This document shows positions 32,831 through 50,872 of a stretch of 50,872 nucleotides of DNA, in pieces. The DNA lies in NCBI RefSeq assembly GCF_003313395.1, contig NZ_QNFZ01000290.1, positions 1 through 50,872 of the forward strand. The letters are read 5' to 3'. A program made the translations under genes and the position numbers. The stretch is from Nonomuraea lactucae. Its GTDB lineage: Bacteria > Actinomycetota > Actinomycetes > Streptosporangiales > Streptosporangiaceae. A model generated the notes under the pieces. The model was not told where the DNA came from and ran no database searches. It saw nothing but the letters and a program-made list of their open reading frames with translations. Every line of letters starts with the position of its first letter. Positions within the stretch are counted from its first letter, which is position 1.

Positions 32831-32836
32831 ATGACC

Positions 32837-33979
32837 GTGATGTTCCGAATCGAGCGAGACGTCCTCGCTGAGGCGGTGGCATGGACGGCACGCAGCCTCC
32901 CCGCCCGGCCGTCCGTGCCCGTCCTGGCCGGCATGCGCCTGGAAGTCACCGAGGAGCAGCGGCTGAAACTGTCCGGGTTCGACTACGAGGTCTCGGCAGA
33001 GGTGACGCTGGAGCTGCACACGGGCGAGCCCGGCGTCGTCCTCGTCTCGGGCAAGCTCCTCGCCGAGATCACCCGCGCCCTCCCCGCACAGCCTGTGGAC
33101 CTGGTCGTCGACGGCGCGAAGGCGGTCGTCACGTGCGGCAGCGCCCGGTTCACCCTGCTGACCATGCCTGTGGAGGACTACCCGTCACTGCCGGCCATGC
33201 CGCCGGCCGCCGGGCGGGTGGGCAGCGACGTCTTCGCATCGGCCGTCGGTCAGGTGGCCGTCGCGGCGGGCAGGGACGACACGCTGCCCATGCTCACCGG
33301 CGTGCGCATGGAGATCGAGGGCGACGTCGTCACCCTCGCGGCGACCGACCGCTACCGCCTGGCCGTACGAGAGCTGAAGTGGCAGCCGGGGCAGCCCGAC
33401 TTCTCGGCCGTCGCGATGATCCCCGGCAAGACCCTCGCCGACACGGCCAAGGCGCTCGGCGCGACGGGCGCCGAGGTGGAGATCGCGCTCAGCTCCGCGG
33501 GCGGCACCGGAGAGGGCATGATCGGCTTCTCCAGCGCCGGGCGGCGCACCACCACGCGGCTGCTCGACCCCGAGTTCCCCAAGTACCGCTCGCTGCTGCC
33601 GACGGAGTTCTCCGCGCGCGCCGAGTTGTCCACAGGCCCGTTCGTGGAGGCCGTCAAGCGCGTCGCCCTGGTCGCCGAGCGCAACACGCCCGTACGGCTG
33701 GCGTTCCGGAACGGCGAGGTCGTCCTGGAGGCCGGCAGCGGCGACGAGGCGCAGGCCGTCGAGGTGCTGCCCGTCGACTACGACGGCGAGGAGATGAACA
33801 TCGCCTTCAACCACCAGTTCCTGCTGGAAGGGCTGGGCGCCATCGACTCCGACGTCGCGCGCCTGCAGATGACCACCTCCACCAAGCCCGCCATCCTCAC
33901 CGGTGGAAAGCCTGTGGAGGACGACGGCGGCGCCCCCGACTACCGCTACCTGATCATGCCGATCCGTCTTTCGGGCTGA
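32837..33979 (+). CDS. dnaN: DNA polymerase III beta subunit (sliding clamp)
   Basis: 380-residue clamp with three repeats of the beta fold. It begins near MFRIERDVLAEAVAW; the C-terminal partner-binding pocket ends YRYLIMPIRLSG. Start choice: AGGAGG at 32822-32827 is 3 nt from ATG 32831, 9 nt from GTG 32837 and 12 nt from ATG 32840. GTG 32837 has the best spacing. The coding sequence contains a perfect DnaA box at 33626-33634. Confidence 0.96.
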   Translation: MMFRIERDVLAEAVAWTARSLPARPSVPVLAGMRLEVTEEQRLKLSGFDYEVSAEVTLELHTGEPGVVLVSGKLLAEITRALPAQPVDLVVDGAKAVVTCGSARFTLLTMPVEDYPSLPAMPPAAGRVGSDVFASAVGQVAVAAGRDDTLPMLTGVRMEIEGDVVTLAATDRYRLAVRELKWQPGQPDFSAVAMIPGKTLADTAKALGATGAEVEIALSSAGGTGEGMIGFSSAGRRTTTRLLDPEFPKYRSLLPTEFSARAELSTGPFVEAVKRVALVAERNTPVRLAFRNGEVVLEAGSGDEAQAVEVLPVDYDGEEMNIAFNHQFLLEGLGAIDSDVARLQMTTSTKPAILTGGKPVEDDGGAPDYRYLIMPIRLSG

Positions 33980-36921: not shown

Positions 36922-39471
<2,550 letters not shown>

Positions 39472-39504: not shown

Positions 39505-42012
<2,508 letters not shown>

Positions 42013-43061: not shown

Positions 43062-43135
43062 GGGGCTATAGCTCAGTCGGTTAGAGCGCTTCCCTGATAA
43101 GGAAGAGGTCCCAGGTTCAAGTCCTGGTAGCCCCA
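43062..43135 (+). tRNA. tRNA-Ile (GAT anticodon)
   Basis: 74-nt cloverleaf: acceptor GGGGCTA / TAGCCCC, D-arm AGCTCAGTCGGTTAGAGC, anticodon stem CTTCC / GGAAG with GAT at 43096-43098, T-arm CAGGTTCAAGTCCTG, discriminator A. CCA is not encoded. It is the expected tRNA after gyrA in actinobacteria and the likely attachment site of the element to its right. Confidence 0.97.
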
Positions 43136-43153
43136 CCCAGTTGACCAGCATCT

Positions 43154-44610: not shown

Positions 44611-44687
44611 TGAACTGATATTCGAAACCCCGGCGAGTGCTCCAACACTCCCGGGGCCAGGCGACCACCTATGCAGGAGGTGCTCGC

Positions 44688-45200
44688 ATGAGCGAGCGTA
44701 CCCAAGACGTGTCCGGCCAGGAAGCCGAGACGGCCAAGCTTTGCCCTGGATGCGAGCAAGTCAAGCCCCTCACGGCATTCGGGATCCGAAGAGGGCGCGG
44801 GGGCCAGAGGATTCCTCGCTGCCGGGACTGCATGAACGCGGCCAAGCGCGCTTGGTATCAGCGGAACCGTGAAGTTGTGGCCGACTACCAACGCAAATAC
44901 GAGAAACGCACTGGTCGACGTGCCAGCCTCAAGAAGTACGGCCTGAGGCCTCAGGACTTCGATGCTCTCGTGGAGGCACAGAACGGCGTTTGCGCCGCAT
45001 GCAACGAGCCCCAGGCGCAGCACGCAAGCTATCTCGACGTTGACCACTGCCATAAGACCGGCCGTGTTCGCGGCCTGCTGTGTCGTCGGTGCAACAAGAC
45101 GATCGGCCTGGCGAAGGAAGACCCCCTGCTCCTGCTCGGCCTGGCAGCTTACCTCCGAAGGTCCTCTGCGGTCGGCCTGCCCACTGGGAGTGTCCAGTGA
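44688..45200 (+). CDS. Endonuclease VII-like HNH nuclease, one zinc module
   Basis: 170-residue protein. One N-terminal CxxC...CxxC module (Cys19, Cys22, Cys45, Cys48) precedes a recombination endonuclease VII-type domain with AQNGVCAAC, the DVDHCHKTG catalytic block and VRGLLCRRCN. Such enzymes resolve branched DNA in phages. ATG 44688 has AGGAGG 7 nt upstream. It overlaps the following paralogue by 4 bp (GTGA), so translation is coupled. Confidence 0.87.
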   Translation: MSERTQDVSGQEAETAKLCPGCEQVKPLTAFGIRRGRGGQRIPRCRDCMNAAKRAWYQRNREVVADYQRKYEKRTGRRASLKKYGLRPQDFDALVEAQNGVCAACNEPQAQHASYLDVDHCHKTGRVRGLLCRRCNKTIGLAKEDPLLLLGLAAYLRRSSAVGLPTGSVQ

Positions 45201-45964
45201 AGGAGAGCGCCGCCAAGGGAGAGGTCTCCACCCGGACCTGCAAGAGGTGCAAACGGATCCAGCCGCTCGTTGCGTTTGCACGGAATGGCAAGTGGTACCT
45301 CGGCGTATGTAGGTCCTGCGTCAATGCCAGTAGGCGCGCTGCTCGCCCACGCAATCGTCGTCCGGCGCCTCCGGTTGACGCTGTCGAATGGACATGCTGG
45401 AAGTGCGAGACAACGCGCCCCATCGATGCTTTTGCTCGCAAAGGCAGTGGCCGACGCCTCGTGTGCAAGCCCTGCCAGAATCAGCGAGTTCGAGAGCTAA
45501 AGGCGGCGAGCCGTCCTCCGCAGGAACCGAAGGTGAAGGTCTGCATCGGGTGCGACCGGTCCGAGTCGGAGGTGGAATTCCCGCGCCACTCGTCTCTCTG
45601 CCGCTCTTGCAGGAACGCCAAGCGGAGAGTTGAGTATGCCGCCGCGCGAGGTGGTGTGGTCAGATTCCGCTCGGAATCTAACGGGAAGGACCCCGAGCGC
45701 CGGTATCGACTCAAGCAGTATGGGTTGACCCTCGCCGACTACGACCGCATGTTCCAGGCGCAGAACGGCGTCTGCGCAGTGTGCCGGGGTCCGCAGGTCG
45801 AGTTTCGGCGCTTCCTGGATGTGGACCACTGCCACGCAACTGGGAGGGTTCGCGGCCTTCTGTGCGGCACTTGTAATGCGGCCCTAGGGGCCGTAAACGA
45901 CGACCCGGAACTGCTGGAAGCGCTAGCCGCCTACATCCAGCAAGGAGCGCCTGCGAGGCGTTAA
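45197..45964 (+). CDS. Endonuclease VII-like nuclease with three zinc modules
   Basis: 255-residue paralogue of the preceding gene. Three CxxC...CxxC modules precede the nuclease domain: Cys15/18/38/41, Cys67/70/90/93 and Cys116/119/135/138. The nuclease domain (about 168-245) has YGLTLADYDRMFQAQNGVC and DVDHCHATGRVRGLLC. The GTG start overlaps the previous stop; frames further upstream are shadows of gene one. The modules are separated by Arg/Pro-rich linkers, suggesting an extended DNA-contacting arm. Confidence 0.86.
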   Translation: MKESAAKGEVSTRTCKRCKRIQPLVAFARNGKWYLGVCRSCVNASRRAARPRNRRPAPPVDAVEWTCWKCETTRPIDAFARKGSGRRLVCKPCQNQRVRELKAASRPPQEPKVKVCIGCDRSESEVEFPRHSSLCRSCRNAKRRVEYAAARGGVVRFRSESNGKDPERRYRLKQYGLTLADYDRMFQAQNGVCAVCRGPQVEFRRFLDVDHCHATGRVRGLLCGTCNAALGAVNDDPELLEALAAYIQQGAPARR

Positions 45965-46008: not shown

Positions 46009-46789
46009 ATGAAGCAGATTCGTGCGAGGCATTTCCACGTTGGGAGGATCTCGCCGATAAGGCTGGTCGTGATCCACAGCATGGAGTTCCCGGAGAAGGG
46101 CAGCACCGCGGAGGACTGCGCCCGCATGTTCGCCACCATGACCCGGCAGGCGTCCGCCCATGTGACGGTGGACAGCAACAAGCGTGGTGCGGTGCGTGGC
46201 CGACAAGGACACTGCGTGGGCGGCGCCGGGGGCGAACGCTGACGGCCTCCAAATGGAGCTTGCGGGTTTCGCCAGGCAGAAGCGCGACGACTGGCTGGAC
46301 GCTTACGGCAAGTCCATGTTGAAGCAGGCCGCGGCTGTGGCGGCAGGCTGGTGCAAGCTGTACAAGATCCCCGTCCGGAAGCTGACCAGGGCAGAGCTGA
46401 AGGCTGGCAAGAAGGGGTTCACTACCCACGCTGACGTGTCCGTCGTCTACAAGCGGACCGACCACACCGACCCGGGGACCGGTTTCCCGTGGGATGTGTT
46501 CCTCGGTCTGGTCCGGGACGCCATGGCGGGCGACGACGACGGGGACGACGAGATCGAGATCCCGAAGTGGACGCGCCGCCTCACCTGGCCGCCGGCGACC
46601 AAGGGCGACGAGGTGAAGGTGTGGCAGCGGCAGATGCGCAAGCGCGGCTGGCATATTGACGTGGACGGCTGGTACAGCGAAGCGGACGAGCGGGTGTGCC
46701 AGGCGTTCCAGCAGGAGAAGGGCATCCCTGTCACCGGCAAGGTCGACAAGCGGACGTGGGATGCGGCGTGGACCGCGAAGGTCACCTGA
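46009..46789 (+). pseudogene. Endolysin: N-acetylmuramoyl-L-alanine amidase plus peptidoglycan-binding domain, frameshifted
   Basis: ATG 46009 (GGGAGG upstream) starts MKQIRARHFHVGRISPIRLVVIHSM, the amidase-2 zinc-site strand. The frame breaks at 46177-46184: reading ACAGC instead of ACAAGC restores DSNSVVRCV and an unbroken protein of 259 residues ending at TGA 46789. Downstream are the amidase core (ADKDTAWAAPGAN, ELAGFARQ, FTTHADVSVVYKRTDHTDPG) and a C-terminal peptidoglycan-binding domain (about residues 195-259, with GWYSEADERVCQAFQQEKG). One extra A explains it. It is either a dead lysin or a sequencing error. Confidence 0.8.
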
Positions 46790-46957: not shown

Positions 46958-46988
46958 GCATTCCCAATCCCGAGGAGACACCTCAATC

Positions 46989-47525
46989 ATGCGCATCCTC
47001 AAGAGCGCTGCTGCTCTGTTCGCCGTCGTCTTGGCCATCGGCCTGGCCGGTGTCGCGTCGGCCACCTCGACTGCGGACGTGCCCGGTCTGGCGATCACGC
47101 AGGTCGGTTACAACGCCTACGGCGCCGACACCCGCTGGAACCGTAACCAGGAGTTCGTCGACGTCAAGAACACCAGCGCCGCACCGGTCAATGTGAAGGG
47201 GTTGCTGGTGGAGGACCAGTGGGCCAAGAGCCACCGCGACGACAACGACCGCAAGTGCAACACCTTCACCGTGAGCAGCCTGCCCGGCGTCGAGACGGGC
47301 GCGGACGGGTCGGTCATGCTGCCGGCCGGGGCCACGGTGCGTGCCTACAGCGGGTGGGGTCGTCCCGCCGCCTCCGGTTCGGTGCACGCGGTCTACATGA
47401 ACTCCCGGTGCGGCTACAACGGCCACATCTGGGGCAACGGCGGCGACACCGCCTGGATCACGCTCGGCTCCGTGTCGGAGTCGTTCGCGTACGACTTCGA
47501 CAACGGGTACACGGTCAAGCCGTAA
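46989..47525 (+). CDS. Secreted protein, possible lamin-tail-like domain
   Basis: 178 residues with a clear signal peptide (MRILKSAAALFAVVLAIGLA, cleavage after ASA about 25). The mature part resembles a lamin-tail-like beta-sandwich in spacing (LAITQVGYN ... NRNQEFVDVKNTSAAPVNVKGLLVED), a weak match. Two Cys remain in the mature region. It lies between endolysin and holin-like genes with GAGGAG upstream, so it may belong to the lysis cassette or be secreted cargo. Function unknown. Confidence 0.65.
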   Translation: MRILKSAAALFAVVLAIGLAGVASATSTADVPGLAITQVGYNAYGADTRWNRNQEFVDVKNTSAAPVNVKGLLVEDQWAKSHRDDNDRKCNTFTVSSLPGVETGADGSVMLPAGATVRAYSGWGRPAASGSVHAVYMNSRCGYNGHIWGNGGDTAWITLGSVSESFAYDFDNGYTVKP

Positions 47526-47534
47526 GGAGACCTC

Positions 47535-47897
47535 ATGTCCAACAACGAGCTGACGGGCGAGCCCGCCCTGTACGCGACTCTGGTGGCCACAGCGGTGCAG
47601 TTCGCTGCCGCGTTCTGGCTGCCGTGGTCGGATGCGATGGTGGCGGGCGTGAACGCGGCTGTGATCGCCGCGGCGGGCATGTGGGTGGCGTTGTCCACCA
47701 AGAGCGCCGACAACGGCGGCAGCATCAAGGCGGCCATCCTAGGCTTCGTGCAGGCGGCCATCTCGGCGGCCGTGACATTCGGGTGGGACGCTACCCCCGA
47801 GCAGACTGCGGTCATCATGTCGCTGGTCGGCTCGCTGGTGGCGGTGTTCATCCGACAGACCAGCAAGCCGAAGGGTGCCTACAACCTGGCGGCCTGA
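47535..47897 (+). CDS. Holin-like membrane protein
   Basis: 120 residues with three or four hydrophobic segments (about 12-30, 35-53, 65-82, 88-107) and a basic C-terminal tail (RQTSKPKG). Size, topology and position just after the endolysin region suggest a phage holin. ATG 47535 has AAGGAG upstream. Holins have little sequence conservation, so this is inference from features and context. Confidence 0.6.
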   Translation: MSNNELTGEPALYATLVATAVQFAAAFWLPWSDAMVAGVNAAVIAAAGMWVALSTKSADNGGSIKAAILGFVQAAISAAVTFGWDATPEQTAVIMSLVGSLVAVFIRQTSKPKGAYNLAA

Positions 47898-48325
47898 CCG
47901 CTAGCCTGATCTCGTGGTCTGGCCCCGGTGTGGCCGGGTGTCGGGACTGCCCTGCCGTCCTTGTTGGCGGTAGGAGCCGGTGAGAGGTCCAGGGGACCTC
48001 AACACCCGGCCAGTGCCTGCCTCTGCGGGCTGGATCCCCTCGCCCGTGGGCGAGTGCCACCCCTCCCCGGGTGTGCGAAAGCCCTCCGCTTCTGGTCGTC
48101 GAGCCAGAGGCGGAGGGCTGCTTCGCGTTGTGCGGCCTGGCGTCGGCGCCGAGCTATGGGCCGTTCGGCTCGTGGCTGGGATGCCGCCCGGTGAGCGGAA
48201 AGTGAGCGGTTGCCGGGGAATGAGCGGAAAGCGAGCGGTTACTGCCGTGTCGTCTGAGGACATCGCGACCCTACCGTGACGAATTCCAGTCAACAGCTGT
48301 CACCTCCACAGAAGAGGGGTATCCC
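47898..48325. other. Intergenic region with structured element copy 1
   Basis: 428 bp. Holds the three-stem element at 48033-48127. A TGAGCGGAAA-type short repeat recurs at 48192-48233 (AGTGAGCGGTT, AATGAGCGGAAA, GCGAGCGGTT). Confidence 0.55.
48033..48127 (+). ncRNA. Structured element copy 1 (ends in a terminator)
   Basis: From GATC: stem 1 CTCGCCC / GGGCGAG (48039-48054, 2-nt loop as drawn), a conserved segment with a small CACCC / GGGTG stem, then GTGCGAA leading to terminator stem 3 (48080-48119, 16-nt arms with one G-U) and TTCGCG. Related copies lie at 48753 and 50181. Confidence 0.55.
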
Positions 48326-48754
48326 ATGCGCAAAGGAACCAAGGCGGCATTAGTTGCGGCTATCGGAGTGCTCGGCCTCACGGCCGGCGGGGCGGCACAG
48401 GCGAACACGGCGCAGGCTGCGGAAGGCCGCTACAACATCATGATCGCTACCGTGGATGCGGGATTCGTCGCCGACTACTGCCTGCTGACCACGACGAGTG
48501 GAAACGGGCGTGCCGCGTGCAGCGGCAACAAGCCGACCAGAGCCCAATTCCGCCTCGGCGTCCCGTACAACCCCGGCGACAAGGTCTGGATCGACATCAA
48601 CGTGAGGGCGGGAAAGGACCGCAAGGGCATCGACCTCAGGGGCAACCACTACTGCGAAGTCTCGGGGCACCTGCTGGACACCAACGTGTGGTGCTGGAAG
48701 AACTTCGCGGACTCCCGCGAGGGCGGCAAGCCCGGGACCCAGATCTTCGGATGA
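48326..48754 (+). CDS. Small secreted protein, four cysteines
   Basis: 142 residues. The signal peptide ends at about residue 31 (AAQANTAQAAEG). The mature region of about 110 residues has four Cys (in DYCLL, AACSG, HYCEV, VWCWK), suggesting two disulfides, and an NVRAGKDRKG loop. No family recognised. ATG 48326 has GAGGGG 6 nt upstream. Its stop overlaps the beginning of structured element copy 2, which should terminate its message. Confidence 0.65.
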   Translation: MRKGTKAALVAAIGVLGLTAGGAAQANTAQAAEGRYNIMIATVDAGFVADYCLLTTTSGNGRAACSGNKPTRAQFRLGVPYNPGDKVWIDINVRAGKDRKGIDLRGNHYCEVSGHLLDTNVWCWKNFADSREGGKPGTQIFG

Positions 48755-48840
48755 TCGCCCTGTTTCAGGGGTAATCCACCCCTCCCCGGGTGTGCGAAAG
48801 CGCCTGCTCTCCCTTTCGGGAGGGCGGGCGCTTCTTCGCG
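48753..48840 (+). ncRNA. Structured element copy 2 (ends in a terminator)
   Basis: GATC, stem 1 CCCTG / CAGGG (48758-48770), then a segment of at least 26 nt identical to copy 1, GTGCGAAAGC and terminator stem 3 (48800-48831, 14-nt arms, two G-U pairs), then TTCTTCGCG. Confidence 0.55.
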
Positions 48841-48887
48841 TCTACACCTGCATTGCGATAACCACAACGCAAGTTCTCGTGGTTCCA

Positions 48888-49247
48888 TCAGTTATTGGGC
48901 TGGAAGGGCAGGTCGCGGCCAGCCTTCGCTATCGCCACCGTCTCGGCGTCGTAGCAGTCCGGATGATCGACGATCAGATGGATTTGGGCCCGCAGTATGG
49001 CCGAAGAGTCCCAGTCCGTCCTCGCCTGGATGTCCTTGTATGCCTGGTACACCTCGGCGCAGGGATCGACTGGGCGGGCAGGCGTGGAGCCGAGCGGGGC
49101 GGTGTCCCGGCCGAGGAAGAACGCGATGACGATGCTGCTGCCGATGATGATCGTGAAGGCGGTCTTCTTGAGCCAGGCGGGTTCGTGAGGCACGTCAGGT
49201 GATGGCGCAGGCGGCAAGTCGGAAGGCCCGGGGGTCTCTGCTGTCAC
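48888..49247 (-). CDS. Small membrane-anchored hypothetical protein
   Basis: 119 residues from GTG 49247. A Pro-rich cytoplasmic N-terminus, one transmembrane helix (TAFTIIIGSSIVIAFFLG), then an external domain with two Cys (DPCAEVYQAYKDI, HPDCYDAETVAIA). The frame is open to GTG 49376, but that extension overlaps a 38-nt segment shared with noncoding DNA at 48124-48161, so I use the shorter start. No Shine-Dalgarno is obvious at either. No family recognised. Confidence 0.5.
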   Translation of the reverse strand: MTAETPGPSDLPPAPSPDVPHEPAWLKKTAFTIIIGSSIVIAFFLGRDTAPLGSTPARPVDPCAEVYQAYKDIQARTDWDSSAILRAQIHLIVDHPDCYDAETVAIAKAGRDLPFQPNN

Positions 49248-49312
49248 ACGTGTGGGACGCGGTCGCCTGCTGGCGGGTGTACGGCTGGGTCCGGATTGCG
49301 ATGGCCTCTTCT

Positions 49313-49350
49313 CGCGTTGTATGGCCTGGCGCCGGCGCGAAGCTACGGGC
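49313..49350. repeat. 38-nt segment similar to the tail of structured element copy 1
   Basis: 32 of 38 positions match 48124-48161 (both begin CGCGTTGT and contain GGCCTGGCG). Confidence 0.7.
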
Positions 49351-49451
49351 TTCTCGTGCCATACCGGACGGCTCACTGCATTCCCCGATGATCACGCCAG
49401 CACGGCCGCTACCTTGACGCGCGTCCTGTCCCCGCTACCCCAAGGCCGCGC

Positions 49452-50126
49452 ATGCCACCCATCACCGACCGCATCGCCTACTGGGACCACTACGCCACCG
49501 GCGTCGCCAGCGACCACGACGCCACCCCCGAAGCGGCGTTGGAGAACGCCTTCGGCTGGACCCAGTACGAGGGCCACGGCCCTGGCGACGAACTGCTCGC
49601 CGATCCCGCCAGCGCGCTGGAACTCGGCTCCGGCCGCGGCCACGCGGTCGCCGCCCTGGCCACCAAGAGCATCGACGCCACCGGCGTGGATCTCTCACCC
49701 GTCCAAGTGGCCGGCGCACACGCCATGTGGGGCCACCTGCCCAACGCCCACTTCGTCCAGGCCGACGTGCTCGACTTCCTGTCCCATACCGACCGGACCT
49801 GGCAGGCGATCTACAGCATCTTCGGCGCGTTCTGGTTCACCGACCCCGAGCAACTGCTCCCGCGCGTCCGCGAGCGGCTCACGCCGGGCGGCCGGCTCGT
49901 CTTCTCCCAGGCGGAAGCCGTACCCGGCCCCTACGGCGTGCAGGGCATGTACGGGGCGGGCTTCACCGGCCCGCAGAGCTGGGTGTACCGGTGGGCATAC
50001 GAGCCTGACGTGTGGGCGCGCATCCTTGGTGAGCACGGATTCGTGGAGGTGCGGGCCTGGCACGGGCCCGCGCCCGAGCAGGACTATGTCGGCACCCTCA
50101 TCGTGCGTGCCCTCCGCCCCCGGTGA
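49452..50126 (+). CDS. Class I SAM-dependent methyltransferase
   Basis: 224-residue methyltransferase. Motif I is ALELGSGRGHAVAAL (about residues 55-69), followed by VDLSPVQVAGA, QADVLDFL and a post-motif GGRLVFSQAEA. Substrate unknown; the compact size and Trp/Tyr-rich C-terminal half suggest a small-molecule methyltransferase. A TTGACG at 49414 could be a -35 box, but the -10 (TACCCC) is poor. It is divergent from the membrane-protein gene and followed by structured element copy 3. Confidence 0.82.
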   Translation: MPPITDRIAYWDHYATGVASDHDATPEAALENAFGWTQYEGHGPGDELLADPASALELGSGRGHAVAALATKSIDATGVDLSPVQVAGAHAMWGHLPNAHFVQADVLDFLSHTDRTWQAIYSIFGAFWFTDPEQLLPRVRERLTPGGRLVFSQAEAVPGPYGVQGMYGAGFTGPQSWVYRWAYEPDVWARILGEHGFVEVRAWHGPAPEQDYVGTLIVRALRPR

Positions 50127-50180
50127 ACCCGCGGGGCCCGTCCCAGACAGTCGCCAGGGTCGCCTTCGGCTTCTTGCGCT

Positions 50181-50280
50181 GATCCCCTCACTCGCTTCCG
50201 TGGGAGGCGAGTGCCGCCCCGCCCCGGATGATGCGAACGCCCCCGCTCGGTCTACGGACCAGGCGGGGGCTCCTTCGTCG
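50181..50280 (+). ncRNA. Structured element copy 3 (ends in a terminator)
   Basis: GATC, stem 1 of 11 bp (50189-50199 with 50103-type symmetry to 50203-50213; arms CACTCGCTTCC and GGAGGCGAGTG), then the GTGCC-CCC-CCCCGG segment, GATGCGAACGC and terminator stem 3 GCCCCCGC / GCGGGGGC (50239-50270), then TCCTTCG. Sequence differs from copy 1 while the stem is kept. Confidence 0.5.
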
Positions 50281-50329
50281 TGCTCGGGTCCACCTCGTGC
50301 AAGCGGCGGGCGAGCACCCACGCGAGCGG

Positions 50330-50872
50330 TCACACCGCGGCGTGCGAGCGCAGCGGACGGACCTGAGCAAGCGCCGAAGCCGCCTCCTGGCGGACCTCAG
50401 CCAGCACCGCGCGAGCGCGCTGCTCGGAGATCTGGCCGCCTCGGGCGGTCACCGCCTCGACCGCGGCAGGCGCCTTGATGCCTGGGTCGTCCTGGTATGC
50501 GGCGCGGATGATCGACCTCTTCTCAGCCGGGGTGAGATCGCCTCGTTGCGCCTGCTCACCACGAGCCTGTCGCACGGCGCGGGCCTCGGCACGAGCCCTT
50601 CGATCAGCCTCCCTACGCTGGGCCTCGGCCAGGCGCTCTGCCGTCTCACGCTCGGCACGCGCCCGCTCGGCCACCCGCTGCTCGGCCGCCATTCGCTCGG
50701 CCGCCGCCAGCCACTCGGCACGCGCTCGCTCAGCCTCGGCCTGCTCGGCGGCCGCCAGACGCTCACGCTCGGCGCGCTCGACCGCTAGGCGCTCGGTCTC
50801 GGCCAGTTCGGCCGCTGCGGCGCGCTCGGCCTCCGCTCGTACGGCCGCTTGCCGCTCGGCCTCGGCCATCTC
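50330..50872 (-). CDS. Coiled-coil protein, C-terminal part (partial at right edge)
   Basis: The frame is open through the right edge; at least 180 residues are visible. Most of it is an Ala/Glu/Arg-rich helix (AERERLAAAEQAEAERA-type heptads) predicted to form a long coiled coil, followed by a small C-terminal domain (LTPAEKRSIIRAAYQDDPGI, then VEAVTARGGQISEQRARAVLAEV) with helix-turn-helix-like character. Proteins of this layout occur in actinobacterial integrative elements (DUF2637/Spd-like), but the diagnostic N-terminal half is not in the window. Confidence 0.5.
   Translation of the reverse strand, partial: EMAEAERQAAVRAEAERAAAAELAETERLAVERAERERLAAAEQAEAERARAEWLAAAERMAAEQRVAERARAERETAERLAEAQRREADRRARAEARAVRQARGEQAQRGDLTPAEKRSIIRAAYQDDPGIKAPAAVEAVTARGGQISEQRARAVLAEVRQEAASALAQVRPLRSHAAV

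Follow-up and report, generated by a model that had tools for sequence, protein, structure and literature searches.

6C RNA carries two hairpins with C-rich loops ahead of a terminator. In B11, two C-rich loops are reported to act on a G tract (PMC10470900). The terminators of Streptomyces are described as long, stable, covarying hairpins followed by 3 to 4 U (PMC12207403), and ends with few U and very stable hairpins are also reported from this genus (PMC8269248; HS-U-lack, S. clavuligerus Term-seq). Here we describe an element of Nonomuraea lactucae that has likenesses to both kinds of system and occurs three times among the phage-type genes at the end of a 50,872-nt stretch of DNA (contig NZ_QNFZ01000290.1; hereafter the window). 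The element is genuine, recurs and is tied to phages; as a terminator module it is for the most part ordinary, apart from one unusual small hairpin. We consider it likely that each copy marks the end of a transcription unit, the module being a U-poor intrinsic terminator of actinobacterial temperate phages.

The three copies, all on the forward strand, begin with GATC at 48033, 48753 and 50181, just as a first-pass annotation of this DNA had placed them. Copy 1 (48033..48128) starts 135 nt past the stop codon of a holin gene and consists of GATCCC, a first stem (stem 1, CTCGCC/GGCGAG), a hairpin with a C-rich loop at 48058-48073, TGCGAA, a terminator stem at 48080-48119 and TTCGCG. Copy 2 (48753..48841) shares 2 nt of its GATC with the stop codon of the upstream gene and has its C-rich-loop hairpin at 48777-48792, then TGCGAA, a terminator stem at 48799-48832 and TTCGCG. 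Copy 3 (50181..50281), starting 54 nt past the stop codon of a methyltransferase gene, reads GATCCCCTC, an 11-bp stem 1, a C-rich segment with a weak hairpin, GATGCGAA, a terminator stem at 50238-50271 and TTCGTC. Copies 2 and 3 stand between converging, mechanically called open reading frames (ORFs), and copy 1 does not. The C-rich identity of at least 26 nt that had been noted between copies 1 and 2 is an exact 26-nt run, CCACCCCTCCCCGGGTGTGCGAAAGC, at 48057-48082 and 48776-48801, with CCGCCCCGCCCCGGATGATGCGAA as its counterpart in copy 3. A strong GC stem followed by TTCG forms the 3′ end of all three copies, which bears out the common layout proposed for them; the stem has 15 to 16 aligned pairs, with at least one mismatch in copy 3, and the TTCG is able to pair with CGAA. 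In each copy, 4 of the first 10 nt past the stem are T. Taken with some flank, the copy regions fold better than dinucleotide shuffles, with z of -4.6, -5.6 and -3.0 for copies 1, 2 and 3. The first-pass annotation lacked the middle hairpin, which reads CACCC-CUCCCC-GGGUG in copies 1 and 2 and is weak in copy 3, where it has a C.A mismatch; it is the only part whose covariation a plain terminator leaves unexplained. The best-supported anatomy is an optional stem 1, the middle hairpin, UGCGAA, the terminator stem and TTCG.

The covariance model that had been proposed as a check was built from the three window copies (R1) and did match further relatives in related genomes; a second model, R2, combined the R1 set with relatives and with L086, a locus found via its holin. 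In the window, only the three copies score above 22 bits with R1, a match by construction, and the RNA model search brought up no further strong copy in the window or in the genome to which it belongs. R1 matched 21 of 198 genomes, the window’s own included, at E <=0.01. Its best scores beyond the window were 66.7 bits in G042, of the same genus, and 54.3 bits in G027, and from 47 bits down relatives (L031, L032 and L033) are mixed with generic terminators (L029 and L030). A search of the genus matched 12 of 55 genomes, again counting the window’s own (E 0.02). With R2, 98 of 342 family genomes were matched at E 0.01, 14 candidates being scored per genome, and a class-wide control matched 41 of 246, among them 6 that are the window’s own genome or members of its family (the family and class sets overlap). 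Outside the family the maximum was 38.7 bits; generic terminators score this high with R2, and hence the weaker matches, which make up most of the 127 in the family, need not share the core and may simply be strong phage terminators. R2 matches were rejected as true relatives in general.

Eleven elements bear the core: the three window copies, L027, L028, L031, L032, L033, L086, L140 and L141, so that eight relatives elsewhere are counted. A ninth, L104 (G318, 45 bits), is doubtful: it has the C-rich run, and its hairpin is weak. It belongs to the 9 non-window R2 matches of at least 41 bits, as do L105 (G054, 45 bits) and L107 (G397, 42 bits), which were dropped since no C-rich-loop hairpin was seen in them by eye. 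L140 and L141 come from viral contigs. The former scores 50.8 bits with R2; the latter, also present in L142, scores 30.9 bits, less than generic terminators reached in the control, and owes its place in the count to the sequence GATCCCCTCGCC...GGCGAGTGCCACCCTCCCCGGGTGATGCGAA. As for sequence patterns, a first, exact one matched no viral contig and, in 149 genomes, nothing but the window. A pattern of middle hairpin plus GCGAA had 12 genome-contig matches: L133 (Nonomuraea basaltis) is a true relative, L132 of Actinomycetospora (35 bits) is doubtful and not counted, and the other 10 had no R2 match at E up to 0.01. The middle-hairpin pattern matched three viral contigs, which are two distinct elements (L140, and L141 with its equal in L142), and a stem-1 pattern matched 16 viral stretches, again L141 and L142 together with 14 others that have no R2 match.

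Only the terminator stem is well supported as a pairing that is kept while its sequence changes, which the first-pass annotation held of the stems at large. In nine sequences aligned by hand, 98.6% of its cells are paired and 15 of 17 pairs have changed on both sides; in 36 model matches, with an alignment fitted to the model, 97.3% are paired. Covariation of this kind is expected of any intrinsic terminator, and a stem that changes yet pairs is the look of U-poor actinobacterial terminators, so covariation is less of an argument for a dedicated RNA than had been claimed. Stem 1 fared less well. It is common to copies 1 and 3, L032 and L141 only, and although 97% of its cells pair in these four alignable sequences, its covariation stays within shuffles (109/500); we rejected it as a conserved RNA stem. 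Of the lengths first given for it, 7, 5 and 11 bp, the 11 bp of copy 3 beat chance (p 0.017). In copy 1 we find 6 bp with a 4-nt loop instead of 7 bp with 2 nt, at a borderline p of 0.053 and with a competing stem in the best fold of the region, and in copy 2 the stem is absent from the best fold, its 45 nt folding no better than shuffles (z +0.7). Of the 11 core-bearing elements, 3 have a better fold than shuffles (p <0.06) in the 45 nt that precede the middle hairpin. The middle hairpin itself has 88.9% of its cells paired, and the number of cells changed on both sides, 9, compares with 2.5 in shuffles (0/500) and lies far above slid versions; by changed pairs the figure is 3 of 6, a value that 47 of 500 shuffles reach. 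Since its alignment was padded by hand and most rows came from searches using the C-rich sequence, these counts lean towards the hairpin. MAFFT alignments that misplaced a hairpin or a frame were kept out of the counts. In 8 of the 11 elements the loop reads UCCCC or CUCCCC (copies 1 and 2, L027, L031, L032, L033, L140 and L141, of which L140 and L141 were found by a pattern requiring TCCCC); in L086 it is UCUCCCCG, and copy 3 and L028 depart from it. With the caveat on its counts, the covariation and the C-rich loop of the middle hairpin go beyond a plain terminator.

Position links the module to phage lysis. Eight relatives were found by RNA model or DNA pattern and not via a holin (L027, L028, L031, L032, L033, L104, L140 and L141), and half of them, L028, L032, L140 and L141, lie next 3′ of a holin of the same family as that of the window (phrog_9752), as does L086; from stop codon to middle hairpin the distance is 175 nt in L140 and 241 nt in L141. 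L033 stands behind an endolysin gene and that of a 64-aa protein with weak PHROG matches, L031 past a similar 64-aa protein and a 58-codon frame, and L027 past a short secreted-looking frame amid genes of chromosomal look. Converging ORFs, called mechanically, flank L028, L032 and L033. Family-wide, 17 of the 127 R2 matches fall within 1.5 kb 3′ of a holin match that shares their strand, and not one does so for a holin match of the opposite strand; the model had been trained on 5 of these 17 but not on the other 12. Uniform placement would give 0.003, a lenient baseline because terminators sit behind genes. Starting instead from holins found by protein, a stem of at least 10 bp occurs within about 260 nt behind 27 of 38, against 4.2 in shuffles (the 38 ends are 37 distinct sequences, and two of the loci also supplied rows to the holin alignment). 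The idea that the C-loop hairpin generally marks holin ends was rejected, with 3 of 38 against 2.3 in shuffles and 118 of 300 shuffle sets as high; only some of these phages have the C-rich module. In the other phage or prophage stretches analysed, of about 7 to 20 kb each, it is present as a single strong copy, mostly at the lysis end.

The interval between holin and terminator holds other structured sequences in some of these loci. L141 (3374-3502, reverse strand) and L142 have, in the stretch that separates the holin from the terminator module, a 129-nt RNA-like sequence that is closed by a long stem and has a GGTTCAGGTCC arm. It recurs at 94% identity at L075:1917-2045, 3′ of a holin in another genus (G405), and a partial third copy is found in G401 (86%); its Rfam matches are weak, with E up to 2. 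Transfer RNA genes stand between a phage gene and the terminator at L059:4408-4487, where the gene is a holin, and at L104:1068-1142. In L140, directly upstream of the element and again between holin and terminator, there is a sequence resembling a tRNA, its middle enlarged, that ARAGORN leaves uncalled.

The reading we prefer, that of a terminator module of the phage lysis operon, starts from these positions, from the relatedness of the elements and from the covariation of the terminator stem and, with its caveat, of the middle hairpin. At its usual site the module would follow directly on the holin and close the late (lysis) operon; here it would have been put to use again after the two cargo genes. 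RNA polymerase would transcribe the gene, the 3′ trailer and the small C-rich-loop hairpin, and would then stop at the long GC hairpin; the middle hairpin may aid termination or protect the 3′ end. Because GCGAA...TTCGC can extend the long hairpin, two-way termination is possible, and transcription of the opposite strand might be stopped too; copies 2 and 3 indeed have converging ORFs on either side. Reverse-strand model matches at the same three hairpins in the window fit a two-way terminator, and we think that the terminator probably acts in both directions. The copies show the stable, GC-rich, short-loop hairpin at the 3′ end of a gene that an intrinsic terminator presents, and the first-pass proposal of a terminator of repeated cassettes comes out as the best-supported one, each copy being 3′ of a gene and the relatives being concentrated 3′ of phage lysis genes. 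Several points weigh on the other side. The mycobacterial polymerase is said, in a title of 2014 by Czyz, to require a U-tract. A consensus terminator scan called none of the three copies, since its rule requires a T run; 4 T in 10 past the stem is too few for an E. coli-type rule, while lying within the 3 to 4 U reported for Streptomyces (PMC12207403). Copies 2 and 3, L027, L031, L033 and L104 are not behind a phrog_9752 holin, the R2 scores of generic terminators from outside the family run as high as given above, and a plain terminator leaves unexplained why copies 1 and 2 share 26 identical nt beside differing stems. If the terminator reading is right, the module helps to recognise late-operon ends, and cargo genes with ends of their own, in prophages of Nonomuraea and its relatives. 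The small hairpin, whose C-rich loop hardly varies while its stem does, may be a terminator helper or a small RNA.

That the module is a small RNA, independent or derived from the 3′ untranslated region, whose C-rich loop pairs with G-rich ribosome-binding sites and whose terminator is the 3′ end, we hold to be unlikely. The near-constant loop and the both-sided changes in the stem beneath it speak for it, as does the combination of several copies, a C-rich loop and a terminator, which resembles what is reported for LhrC (PMC4132741) and B11 (PMC10470900). What tempers this is the shuffle result for changed pairs, the hand-padded alignment with its C-rich recruitment, and the ordinary frequency of C-loop hairpins behind protein-found holins. 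Moreover, no promoter-like site was found near the copies by a consensus scan, which does not cover all promoter types, and duplex energies against seven nearby start regions, chosen by eye and with no shuffle control, brought out no stand-out target. Nor does a known RNA family fit, in keeping with the earlier remark that no named one does: Rfam at gathering score reports only tRNA over the window, 6C RNA (RF01066; gathering score 47 bits) is not reported there, and permissive Rfam scans of 47900-50400 and 47895-48060 gave weak matches only, with E 0.3 at best. In the genome as a whole, 6C has two matches below its cut-off, both elsewhere, the best at 25.4 bits (150 of 5139 candidates scored). 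Where 6C has two C-rich loops, copies 1 and 2 have a single one; the best fold of copy 1 places GGAUCCCC in a second hairpin, which copy 2 is without, and the hairpin of copy 3 has its mismatch. A bolder version, on which the trailers of lysis operons would release small RNAs whose UCCCC loop occupies Shine-Dalgarno sequences late in infection, a phage-borne, terminator-coupled functional counterpart of 6C and LhrC multiplied onto each cargo gene, strikes us as distinctly improbable; if the module did prove to be a small RNA, the C-rich-loop mechanism familiar from 6C and LhrC would have a phage representative.

Two further alternatives concern the DNA or the nascent transcript. The copies could be cassette borders, repeated DNA at which recombination gains and loses cargo genes, with the hairpins incidental. 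Three copies behind different genes, the 26 identical nt beside unrelated stems, and a copy 1 terminator nearly the same as that of L027 in another species would suit this, and so would a possible remnant: at 49312-49350, behind CCGGATTGCGATGGCC, there is a second version of the 3′ flank of copy 1 (48123-48161) with 85% identity, which suggests a decayed fourth copy on the forward strand (49274..49353) lacking the terminator stem. Its local score is 65.5 against a maximum of 51 in 200 letter shuffles and comes mostly from the 39-nt flank; the window has other long exact repeats, for example near positions 90 and 22300. Integron attC core sites are GTTRRRY and RYYYAAC, and neither is present in any of the three copies. 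With a single strong copy in the other stretches analysed, we regard the cassette-border explanation as very unlikely. Very unlikely too, and if anything slightly more so, is that the C-rich segment is a control site for Rho, an antiterminator or a repressor, on nascent RNA or on DNA, setting passage of the terminator. The segment is conserved, stands directly upstream of the hairpin and has a C-rich, G-poor start, but it is only about 20 nt long, to our knowledge no partner protein is known, and the compensatory changes in the middle hairpin, with their caveats, favour an RNA structure over a DNA site.

The setting agrees with a phage origin. Host chromosomal genes, dnaN (32831-33979), gyrB (37528-39471), gyrA (39505-42012) and a DUF3566 gene, are followed in the window by tRNA-Ile (43062-43137) and then by phage-type genes: a DNA methylase, two endonuclease VII ORFs, an endolysin with amidase and peptidoglycan-binding domains (46184..46789, forward) and the holin (phrog_9752; 47535..47897, forward, E 6.8e-17). 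This points to a prophage adjoining tRNA-Ile, near host gyrB and gyrA. No integrase was seen in the window, and the exact 3′ end of tRNA-Ile has no second occurrence there. The two cargo genes, both on the forward strand, are that of a small secreted-looking protein with no family match (48326..48754), which would be ended by copy 2, and a methyltransferase gene (49452..50126), which would be ended by copy 3. Opposing them on the reverse strand are an ORF with no Pfam match (48888..49376), converging on copy 2, and an Ala/Glu-rich ORF with no match (50330..50869), converging on copy 3. At the DNA level the methyltransferase gene distantly matches methyltransferase genes in 7 Streptomyces phage records, beyond which phage records gave nothing better than E 0.3. 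The secreted protein matched no viral contig; it has two related stretches (43-44% identity) in its own genome (G000:C987:13648-14404, reverse strand) and, at E 0.001, none that matches among 99 further genomes of the family. Other features of the region are two consecutive endonuclease VII ORFs (44637-45200 and 45080-45964) with repeated DNA between them, and a secreted-looking, lamin-tail-like protein (46980-47525) between endolysin and holin, whose Pfam LTD match is below its cut-off. Judged by eye, viral L141 has a protein like it ahead of the holin, and in L094 one begins 3′ of the holin. Between the holin and copy 1, 47931-48012 is predicted to form a three-way junction with an 11-bp closing stem (weak Rfam matches only), and two imperfect 29-nt direct repeats with TGAGCGGAAAGNGAGC lie at 48179-48236, before the gene that copy 2 would end.

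A literature search, not a complete one, brought up no element recognised as this module, and its place among described systems is best given by likeness and difference. Short repeats between the genes of actinobacteriophages (the 17-bp repeat of cluster O, PMC4351075; the 50-bp repeat of Vardy, PMC9671010) are, like it, short, numerous between genes and thought to be regulatory, but these are reported to be a short inverted repeat and a promoter-bearing motif, whereas the module ends genes and forms long hairpins. LhrC of Listeria and other UCCC-motif small RNAs share with it several copies, UCCC in a loop and a terminator end, as far as these are reported (PMC4132741); the module differs in standing in the 3′ trailers of genes, with no promoter found by consensus scan and no stand-out target. 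6C RNA (RF01066; mycobacterial B11) is likewise actinobacterial, with a C-rich-loop hairpin and then a terminator, whereas the module has one clear C-rich loop, goes undetected by the Rfam model and is located in phages. In form the module is like the U-poor terminators of Streptomyces and other GC-rich bacteria (I-shaped; PMC8269248; TERMITe atlas, PMC12207403), as these are reported: a long stable GC stem, a short loop, about 4 U in the first 10 nt and covariation in the stem. To that plan the module adds a 5′ part, the C-rich-loop hairpin and UGCGAA, shared between copies and between phages, and its occurrences so far are from a single genus, the family of that genus and viral contigs, most of them in the lysis regions of phages.

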